Source: Tausonia pullulans
Taxonomy: Eukaryota; Basidiomycota; Tremellomycetes; Cystofilobasidiales; Mrakiaceae
NCBI GenBank assembly: GCA_951802195.1
Contig: OX637627.1
Location: forward strand, 434,001-498,000
DNA length: 64,000 nucleotides
Direction: 5' to 3'
This document shows, piece after piece, positions 55,768 through 61,322 of this stretch. The notes under the pieces were generated by a model. It was given only the letters and a program-made list of their open reading frames with translations. It was not told the DNA's origin and did no database searches. The stretch's first letter is position 1. Every line of letters begins with the position of its first letter. A program made the position numbers and the translations under genes.

Positions 55768-58700
55768 TTACGCCCTCGGCTCCGAAGCCTTCTCGGCGAC
55801 GTGCTGTGTGGGTGTCAAACGATTACGCCAGTCAGCCTTGGAACAGCGCTCACCACAACAAGCGGGGGGGAATTACTCACCGCCAGGAGGTCCTTCTTCA
55901 GCCACGCCGACTTAGGGGTGAACCACCACATCCCAACGGCGAGGAGTGTCGCAGCCGCCCAGATAACGACAGCGTAGTTGAACGACTCCGCGCCAGTAGG
56001 GTAGACAAAAGGTGCGACTGGGAGAGGGAGTTAAGGTCAGACGTTGGAGAGTACTATCGATACGCGCCACAACTAACTCAGGACCGAAAAGAGGAAGAGA
56101 TTCCAAACGCCCGCGATTAGGTAAAATGGCTTGGCAAGCCGGCCGAGTCCAAAGCGCGTCGAGCCAAAGGCGTTCGGAGTGAAGAAGTAGCGAGAGAGGG
56201 CGATGAGCGAATACGCTGAAATCGTCGGCACGGCACCGGCCGAGATGAGGGAGGTGAAGGCGACGTTGGAGGGGAGAATTGTACAGAGCAGCACGGCACC
56301 AAAGACAGCGAAGACGGTAACTGCGTTCTTTGGGCGACCATCCGGAGTAACTTGTCCGATCCAACTGGAGCCGGGGAGGACGCCGTCTCGAGCAACGGCA
56401 AAGATGAGCCGAGACGCAGCCACGATGGCGACCGACGAGTTAATGATCAGACCGATGACCTGCCCGATGCCCGACGCCGAGAATCAGCCATCCGCTCAGG
56501 TTGGGTCCGTGCGTTAAGAGGACTCACTGCCAGAACCGTCATGAAGACTGCGCCGCCTTTGCCAAGGGCCATTGCGTAGATCTAGGCGAGAAACACTGTG
56601 CAGATGAGCAGCTGACCCTTATATATATTTTTCAAACTCAAGCCCACGCTTCTCACCTGTACAAACGGCTGCGGCGCTGTCAAGGTCATCCAAACGTCGA
56701 TGTTGGGTGTGACGAAGAGAAAAAGGATGGTCGCGAGTAGTCCGCACGTTCCAGAGGCAATGGCGCTCGTGAAGATGCCTCTAGCAGCGGCAGTTGAAGC
56801 ATTTTTGGTCTCTTCGGCTGTATGTCCAGATGCGTCAAAGCCAATGAGGGGGCCAGTGGCGTAGATGCTGGGAGGGGTGTCAGAGGTGGTGCCCCTTGAC
56901 TGGCAGATCGCAATCGACAGACGAACAATGAGAGCATCCAGTTCCAAGCCGGCGGTGCACCAGTCCCATTGTAGGTGACGAGCAGCTCTGATGGAGAGCG
57001 AAGGCCGTATGTCCGGTGGGCGCCGATGGGGAGCCAGATCACGCAGAGGAGAAAGTCGATCAACATGAGCACCATCGAGATTTTGAAGACCCAGGCGTAG
57101 GCGCGTTGAGGGAGGTAATTGAGGGCAACGACGACCACTGAATAGTCTTATCAGCAATCGGATGGGCCCAAGGGGAAGATAGAAGGCTCGGAGAACACGG
57201 CCGACCTACCGAGAAGGGCCTCGGAGACAGCCCAGACGACAACTCGAAAGCGGATCTCAGTCACGCCGAGTCCTCCAGGAAAATCGACTTCGAAAACGTA
57301 GAGCAAGCTTAAGATGAAATTAGCCGTGGTTTGGCAGTTACCGGCAGCAAATGTCCTATCGTATAACAAAGGGAGGAGGGTCAGTGGAGCGCACGAGAGA
57401 CAAATGTGAGCTTTTCAATACCAACATCCACGCCGTGCACGCCCAAAATGCGACGATGAAGCCAATGAGGCGACTGTGCTTTGCTCCGGCAGCTTCGGCA
57501 GCCCAGATATAGCTAAACGTTTGGTATGGGCGTGAGCGATGAGTCCCTATCGGTCGTCGGGGGGGGGGGGGGGGGAGGAGGGGGGGGGACAAGAACACAC
57601 ATGCTGCCGGACAGCGGGATCGCTGAGCAGATCTCGGCCAGGACGGCGGCTGTGACTGATGATCGGGAGAAGTCATTAGTTCAGATAGGCTGGTGAACAA
57701 TAGAGATGAGCGCACTCCACATGAGGGCCATAGCTGCAGGGAAACAAGATGGAACGTCAGATGGGAGAGGACAGGCAAGGGGACCGAGAGCGCCTCTACA
57801 CACCGACGAGCTGCATCGACCACATCGCCTTAGGACCGCCGGCGAGGATACCGAGGAAAAAGATAGATCGTGTAACGCCGATGAAGTTCATTGCTGATAG
57901 GCTTGCAGCAAAATTCTCGATGAATCCCCAGCGTCTACCGAGGGTCTGAAAGAGCAGGAAGCATTGAAAGCGAAATCAGCGCCCGTCATCTGTTACCGAA
58001 CAGCCAAAAGCAGAAGACCAACCTGCTTGTATCCCATGGACTCCTGCACATACCAAGTAATATAACCAGTGAGTCAGCACGCCACATCCTGAGCTGACGG
58101 CTCGGCTCCACGCGCGAGCCGAACAAGAGTCGAAGAATGCGCGGGCAACAACGCAATGAAGAGGTGAAAGGAAAGTGGAGTTGAGAAAAAAGGATGGGGT
58201 GGCCCATGAAGAAGTCTAGCTAGGGTGAATAAGAAAATGGAGAAGAGAAGACCGAGGGCGAGCTCTTTCGTTTCTGGGGTGTTTCTTCATATGCAACACG
58301 ACTCGCGCGCGGGTCGTGTAAGCACAGTGCGCTGGTATTATCCAGATCAAGTTCAGACCGTTCGGGCTGCTTGGGTTCACACTTGTTCTATTGTTTCCCC
58401 TTGGAACACCCATTACTGGCGCGCGTCGTCCGCTCGCTCGCTCGGAGCATCACCTCCGGCGGACGAACGGCTGCTCGAGCACATGTGGTAACCAAGAGGA
58501 GAAAGTAGAAGCAAGCCACCAAGCGAGCCACGCTCTCTCAGGTCAGTCGTCCTTGCTCCCCAAGCAAACGCGCGGGTGTGCTTAACTCTTGCGCGGACGC
58601 CGGTACTACCGACCAACGAGCAAGAGCCGAAGACGACACGTGCACGCACGCCGCTGGATCGTCGCAAAAAGACGCTGCCACCGGTACAGCCAGAAGGTTG

Positions 58701-59052
58701 GGAGAGCCCCTAAAGGTAGGTACCGAGTTGTGAATGTGGGTCTCGCACATTGGGCACAGGCGCAGGCGAAACACCGCCGAGAGAAACTCGAGAACTTCAC
58801 CGCGCGCGCCGGCGTCTCTCCTCCTTCAGGAGATTAAGGTGAGAGGAATGTCATTGGCAGACCATTTGCTTCTCATCGGAATCTGGAATGGCGGAGAGAG
58901 AGAGCGTCAGCATGAAAAACGAGGAAGCGAAGTACGACGCGAAACAGCAAGAGAAGGCGTGCGCTGCTCTAGCGATCAATCGCAATCTGACCAAGGGAGT
59001 CGACAAAGCTCTGCGGCTTGTCCTTCGTGTTGTCGGTGGAGGCGGCGTCCAT
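55768..59052 (-). CDS. APC-family permease, candidate thiamine transporter
   Basis: A 12-helix-type permease of the amino acid/choline/GABA group. Exon 1 (59052-58992, MDAASTDNTKDKPQSF), exon 2 (58882-58863, DSDEKQM) and exon 3 (58043-58023, ESMGYKQ) join in phase to give the usual cytosolic start DEKQMESMGYKQTLGRRWGF. Helices follow: NFIGVTRSIFFLGILAGGP, IYIW-like YIWAAEAAGAKHSRLIGFIV, CQTTANFILSLLY, DFLLCVIWLPIGAHRTYG, PLIGFDASGHTAEETKNAS (the family block FDASAHMSEET), IIYA-like IYAMALGKGGAVFMTVLAV, NSSVAIVAASRLIFAVARDG and SYSLIALSRY-like AYSLIALSRYFF. The last exon ends EKASEPRA at 55768. S. pombe Thi9, a thiamine carrier, belongs to this family. With the TPP aptamer in intron 2, a thiamine or thiamine-precursor substrate is likely; this is inference. 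Confidence 0.85.
58322..58422 (-). promoter_or_regulatory. TPP (thiamine pyrophosphate) riboswitch aptamer inside permease intron 2
   Basis: On the minus strand, 58349-58330 reads TGATCTGGATAATACCAGCG, the conserved P4-P5 core of TPP aptamers in its fungal form (TTGATCTGGATAATACCAGCG in NMT1-type switches). Upstream are GGGT (58411-58408) and ACCC (58376-58373), able to form P2. Between them are GTTC/GAAC for the P3 hairpin and UGUGA at 58381-58377, in the place of the pyrimidine-binding UGAGA. GCGCCAGT (58422-58415) can pair with ACTGTGC (58328-58322) as P1, with one bulge. The usual purine run after CAGCG (P4, 3' strand) is not seen in its normal form, which is the weak point. Lying within the 819-nt intron 58862-58044, it most likely controls splicing. 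Confidence 0.82.
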
Positions 59053-61250: not shown

Positions 61251-61322
61251 GGATGTGTCGTATAGTGGTTATTATTCAAGATTTCCATTCTTGAGACAGG
61301 TGTTCGATTCACCTCACATTCA
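61251..61322 (+). tRNA. tRNA-Gly (anticodon TCC)
   Basis: The cloverleaf folds by hand. The acceptor stem is GGATGTG with CACATTC (one G-T pair). The D arm is GTATAGTGGTTATTAT (A box with the AGTGGTT loop). The anticodon stem is CAAGA/TCTTG with the 7-nt loop TTTCCAT, giving anticodon TCC. The T arm is AGGTG-TTCGATT-CACCT, holding the B box GGTGTTCGATTC. The discriminator is A, and a TTTT stop lies two bases downstream. No intron. The pattern closely follows yeast tRNA-Gly(UCC), which reads GGA. Confidence 0.9.

Follow-up and report, generated by a model that had tools for sequence, protein, structure and literature searches.

An amino-acid-type (APC-type) permease gene of Tausonia pullulans carries, in its coding intron 2, an element that is very probably derived from a TPP riboswitch. 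With a probability of about 0.52, we consider that this intron is the ancestral home of the basidiomycete TPPsw-AA (THI9-type) riboswitch, and that the present element has diverged strongly, with its TPP sensing weakened or lost. Descent from TPPsw-AA is suggested by the exact core, the order of P2, P3 and UGNGA, the AA_permease_2 host, the translated aptamers of homologous permeases and the literature. Decay is suggested by the low RF00059 score, the incomplete P4, the UGUGA motif and the far better scores of the THI4 and NMT1 elements in the same genome. The weak distal donor also favours this reading.

The permease gene and its small exons

The window, that is, the whole stretch of 64,000 nucleotides analysed here, belongs to contig C8 of a 23.9 Mb genome in 21 contigs. 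Eleven exons of the permease gene were modelled by script and the remainder, which reaches about 55,880 on the minus strand, was read by eye (Table 1). The product matches AA_permease_2 (PF13520) with 152.8 bits, as an amino-acid-type permease of a fungus. Among the best 120 of 677 homologues, one Mrakia frigida protein is 73% identical and the other 119 are 54-65% identical; those bearing organism names are basidiomycetes, and the named proteins are mostly annotated as amino acid or GABA transporters. No paralogue was found in the genome, all nine matches falling inside the gene itself, and no solved structure gave a sequence match at E 0.001. Searches of genome contigs and viral contigs yielded no DNA from a relative. 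A tRNA gene is also present in the window (61251-61322, plus strand; RF00005, 57.4 bits).

Codon 27 is the end of exons of 61 and 20 nt. The original prediction, an 819-nt coding intron after this codon flanked by exons of 20 and 21 nt, agrees with our model in coordinates and frame; its figure of about 50-90 nt for the other introns is slightly off, as the nine others modelled measure 59-109 nt. Across the junctions the frame reads DSDEKQM/ESMGYKQ/TLGRRW and aligns with basidiomycete homologues, e.g. DSDELQL/QKLGYKQ/TLHRTW. The seven-residue microexon is skipped exactly and in frame in the gene models of five of the 120 listed homologues (P0036, P0040, P0044, P0045 and P0049, by script), and the same skip was seen by eye in four more (P0041, P0055, P0081 and P0087).

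Table 1. Features of the permease gene and of intron 2 (window positions; order of the minus strand after the first row)
Feature	Position	Strand	Basis
Permease gene, model exons 1-11 (AA_permease_2)	56528..59052	-	Exon modelling, Pfam, homologues
Exon 2, 20 nt	58863..58882	-	D.DE.QL common to many homologues here
Intron 2, 819 nt, phase 0, after codon 27; retained frame VCQ-stop	58044..58862	-	Frame across junctions
Possible P1 5-prime strand, CAGU	58415..58418	-	Pairing
P2 5-prime strand, GGGU	58408..58411	-	Sequence, folding
P3 5-prime strand, GUUC	58404..58407	-	Sequence, folding
P3 3-prime strand, GAAC	58385..58388	-	Sequence, folding
UGUGA replacing UGAGA (J3/2, pyrimidine side); overlaps donor-like GUGUGA starting at 58382	58377..58381	-	Sequence
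P2 3-prime strand, ACCC	58373..58376	-	Sequence, folding
Extra J2/4 hairpin, CAG.CC/GG.CUG	58354..58369	-	Sequence, folding
TPP aptamer core, exact 20-mer: end of P4 5-prime strand, J4/5, P5, L5, GCG	58330..58349	-	Sequence, RF00059 alignment, genome scan
Possible P1 3-prime strand, ACUG, one base past GCG, at the expected site of the P4 3-prime strand/AGGGA	58325..58328	-	Pairing
Donor-like GUAUGU, separated by two bases from the AG that closes intron 2; possible alternative 5-prime splice site	58048..58053	-	Donor matrix
Exon 3, 21-nt microexon, codes ESMGYKQ	58023..58043	-	Gene model, homologues

The TPP-like element of intron 2 and its relatives

The 20-mer core TGATCTGGATAATACCAGCG is exact at the place first proposed for it, and nowhere else in the 23.9 Mb genome is the IUPAC core matched perfectly. 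Matches with one mismatch occur at two other places, THI4 and a site on C10, the latter with no RF00059 match listed there. About 1e-5 exact copies of the 20-mer would be expected genome-wide by chance (first-order Markov model, window composition), and it was not found in the viral contigs searched. The pyrophosphate-side core (GAUC, P5 and GCG) is present as a 22-position RF00059 match with 20 bases exact.

Upstream of this core, P2, P3 and UGUGA stand in the order of a TPP aptamer. Using a search rule composed once the sequence was known, the arrangement of P2, P3 and UGNGA was found 7 times in 20,000 dinucleotide shuffles when the flank was 80 nt long, 34 and 48 times in 20,000 with flanks of 150 and 250 nt, and at 31 of 20,000 random places of the window, the intron-2 site itself included. 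Pairing partners for P1, P2 and P3 had all been proposed beforehand; P2 and P3 stand, in order, and P1 (CAGU/ACUG) is possible but not significant, as 10.8% of 20,000 shuffles do as well on P1 alone. The replacement of UGAGA by UGUGA and the lost purine run are both seen in the sequence, the stretch after GCG being CACUGUG. A hairpin-capable segment, UGUGC..ACACGAC...GUCGUGU.GCAUA (window 58290-58326, minus strand, by eye), nearly abuts the core. Displacement of the 3-prime strand of P4 by a downstream hairpin is a conceivable cause of its loss, considered by eye. An intact aptamer with its 5-prime half further upstream was rejected by eye: the UGAGA near 58541 is without a P2 partner or a core at a workable distance.

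The RF00059 search suggested with the original prediction gave the intron-2 element 19.4 bits against a gathering cut-off of 54.3, over model positions 63-84 only, with E-values of 0.49 for a search of 1,101 nt and 2.48 for the whole genome; no RF00059 match at gathering score was found anywhere in the window. The yardstick for this element came from prokaryotes, where the identical 20-mer occurs in at least 118 places; three of these 118 were too near a contig end and were dropped, leaving 115 usable controls (111 distinct). P4 has four pairs in 73 of these and three in 42, never fewer, against two of four in intron 2. UGAGA occurs within 80 nt in 114 of the 115. The distance from ACCC to the core is 4-11 nt in 91 of the 103 controls with ACCC locatable after UGAGA, and 23 nt in intron 2, whose J2/4 has about 16 extra bases. 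The 80 listed control loci alone give P4 with four pairs in 47 and three in 31, UGAGA in 77 of 78, and the usual spacing in 62 of 68. By its P4, compared with the 115 controls, the intron-2 copy is outside the normal range of TPP aptamers, and both this and the RF00059 result speak against an intact working switch.

Better preserved elements occur elsewhere in the genome. A THI4 element on C15 (L001) scores 54.4 bits with RF00059, above the cut-off, and two NMT1/THI5 elements, L002 (G000:C4:6909-7011) and L003 (G000:C16:779663-779765), score 40.1 bits each, below it. All three matches span the whole model, with UGAGA and four P4 pairs as read from the alignments. Of four exon pieces taken from L001 and L002, three matched Pfam. 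The NMT1/THI5-like copies are about 96% identical over 3.1 kb and lie close to contig ends, with the TPP element between exons (by eye). NMT1 with a riboswitch is rare or absent in Basidiomycota according to the accessible portions of PMC5882874 and PMC11683625.

Among the 120 listed homologous permeases, five hold translated TPP aptamers in their N-termini. Three (P0054, P0058 and P0093) contain the peptide LR(S/L)YR(L/S)NL...TCVGK and two (P0072 and P0089) the peptide EIIPLEPE, in another frame; one RNA, UGAGAUCAUACCGCUUGAACCUGA, is compatible with both frames, P0093 differing at at least two bases (its L and S). In a degenerate codon scan that allows any synonymous codon, with a pattern composed once the peptides were known and some positions free, these five show 0-1 mismatches, the other 115 show 5-7 and shuffled proteins 4-7. 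The positive control, the reading frame of the genome's NMT1 that contains the RF00059 match, has one mismatch. In P0054, P0058 and P0072 the aptamer peptide precedes the microexon (LGYKQ or LGYTQ), an order known from the proteins, in which the exact intron is not visible; the models of P0089 and P0093 are without the microexon. The translated aptamers could also stem from a different intron further upstream that the gene model has joined on. The cores of these fungal sequences vary too, with GAUC changed to GAAY in P0054 and GAGC in P0072 and P0089 (by eye). Translations of the window core (DLDN/IWII-type motifs) were absent from the first 200 residues of the 120 listed homologues, and the first 60 residues of P0058, used as a protein query, matched only P0058 itself.

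Four of the 120 listed homologues (P0032, P0035, P0102 and P0117) are named translation initiation factor 5B, although permease domains are the only Pfam domains listed for them. The available text of PMC5882874 reports that eIF5B genes of Gloeophyllum and Postia contain TPP riboswitches; permeases misnamed eIF5B may explain this odd report.

Folding, splicing and the possible fate of the switch

A 105-nt piece with the core is unremarkable in stability, 131 of 200 shuffles being equally stable. The TPP-like fold lies 2.8 kcal/mol above the minimum, and the corresponding values are 2.0 for the THI4 element and 6.2 for NMT1, a rough comparison since different helices were enforced. Being just 2.8 kcal/mol above the minimum, near the THI4 value, the TPP-like fold can form.

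The modelled donor at 58862 is weak, with 2.8 bits and rank 15 of 57 GTs in a donor matrix built from 10 donors only; the GUAUGU at 58053 reaches 6.3 bits, and the stronger donors of intron 2 include 58613, 58382, 58053 and 58748. A donor at least 12 nt downstream of 58862 adds VCQ-stop, which leaves a protein of 30 residues. Skipping of both small exons, suggested with the original prediction, is not the likeliest outcome, because exon 3 would drop out in frame while such downstream donors bring VCQ-stop. The weak distal donor, the stronger downstream donors and the in-frame stop fit the published logic of Type II and Type III switches, from which we infer splice switching.

On the fungal Type II/III models, the ancestral element would have worked as follows. 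When TPP is scarce, splicing would join the distal donor (58862) to the acceptor at 58044, giving a functional permease. With TPP bound, the folded aptamer would shift splicing to donors further down the intron, VCQ-stop would be kept and a 30-residue peptide would result. In the present lineage the P4 3-prime strand and the J4/1 purines would have been lost, the J2/4 hairpin gained and UGAGA changed to UGUGA, so that the two arms that grip the ligand would be expected to fall out of register.

Masking of splice sites by P4/P5 was rejected as evidence, the complementarity to the upstream intron being matched by 148 of 200 shuffles, and a P4/P5 match in exon 4 (-18.1 kcal/mol) was equalled in 21 of 200. 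The pairing of the GUAUGU site with the core (-12.4 kcal/mol) is tied with other GT sites.

The main competitor, tentative and clearly the less probable of the two, is a functional TPP riboswitch with an unusual architecture that tolerates a short P4, the J2/4 hairpin and UGUGA, and in which TPP would direct splicing to the downstream donors and an early stop. It would account for the retained core, P2 and P3, for the closeness of the TPP-like fold to the minimum, for the host gene, a known home of TPPsw-AA, and for an intron much longer than its nine modelled neighbours with several donors stronger than the distal one. It is harder to reconcile with a P4 and a J4/1 that fall beyond anything seen in the 115 natural elements, an RF00059 match of just 22 positions, a stability common among shuffles and a P1 that is not significant. 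Several points also weigh against the preferred reading of a diverged descendant: the energetically accessible TPP-like fold, the restriction of the core controls to prokaryotes, the variation of the translated fungal cores, the absence of a translated window core from the 120 homologues, and the possible origin of the translated aptamers in another intron. In addition, slow neutral decay would hardly be expected to leave a 20-nt core untouched beside a lost P4, a pattern that could reflect selection.

Considerably less probable is a rewired aptamer with P4 preserved in permuted strand order: CAAG, now located upstream within J2/4, would take the place of the lost 3-prime strand and pair with CUUG, the 5-prime strand of P4. 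The CAAG/CUUG pairing does appear beside P5 in the minimum-energy folds of 70-nt and 49-nt pieces, yet the z-scores are just -1.5 and -1.2 (equalled by 13 and 24 of 200 shuffles), and the pairing needs bases also used by P2 (ACCC). A more elaborate proposal is even less likely: a working sensor with this permuted P4, CAAG lying in the J2/4 hairpin, and with UGUGA inside the donor-like GUGUGA at 58382, in which the ligand would hide the splice site in its own pocket, possibly with reversed control. Finally, an ordinary long intron with a TPP-like 20-mer by coincidence is highly improbable, for although the sub-threshold Rfam score and the C10 site without a listed RF00059 match would suit it, about 1e-5 exact copies are expected per genome and the site is in a gene family known for TPP aptamers.

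If the element still senses TPP, this would show that an aptamer can do without P4, the purine run and UGAGA, present in all or nearly all of the 115 prokaryotic controls, or can rebuild them. If sensing has been lost, as our preferred reading of weakened or lost function allows, the intron would offer a natural example of how a eukaryotic riboswitch fails in a transporter gene, with the THI4 and NMT1 copies in biosynthesis far nearer the consensus. As translated aptamers occur in wrong gene models, a degenerate codon scan of protein databases can find fungal riboswitches.

Comparison with known systems

The setting, a TPP riboswitch in a basidiomycete amino-acid-type permease, is not new. In the parts of the literature available, TPP riboswitches of amino-acid transporters occur widely across Basidiomycota (PMC5882874), TPPsw-AA is the most prevalent group among Basidiomycota in a survey of medically relevant fungi (PMC11683625), and basidiomycete Thi9 orthologues carry riboswitches (PMC5997356, citing Moldovan et al.). 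In the open-licence literature, no report joining a riboswitch with Cystofilobasid- or Mrakia was found, which is weak evidence of absence.

The THI4 and NMT1/THI5 elements of the same genome also lie between exon-like stretches and have a short P3; they differ from the intron-2 element in their whole-model RF00059 matches (54.4, 40.1 and 40.1 bits), UGAGA and four P4 pairs. Type II switches (NCU01977/DUR31, a urea-type transporter) share the long intron, of 650-900 nt in the accessible description, and several possible donors. However, they belong to another transporter family, and for a long-distance alpha pairing the intron-2 P4/P5 offers the upstream intron a complementarity at the level of shuffles (148/200). 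Type III switches, in an internal intron with a stop between two donors, are matched by the in-frame stop between 58862 and the donors at least 12 nt downstream; their introns measure 200-400 nt, in contrast to 819 nt here, and the intron-2 aptamer is incomplete.

Regarding the TPPsw-AA/THI9 group, L5 is described in the available part of PMC11683625 as being without RUAAUR, whereas L5 of the intron-2 element is AUAAUA; this element also differs in having UGUGA and a long J2/4, with no P4 3-prime strand and no AGGGA. It resembles the group in its amino-acid-type permease host, TPP core, P2 and P3, and possibly in its site before the same microexon, as judged from the translated aptamers of three homologous proteins.
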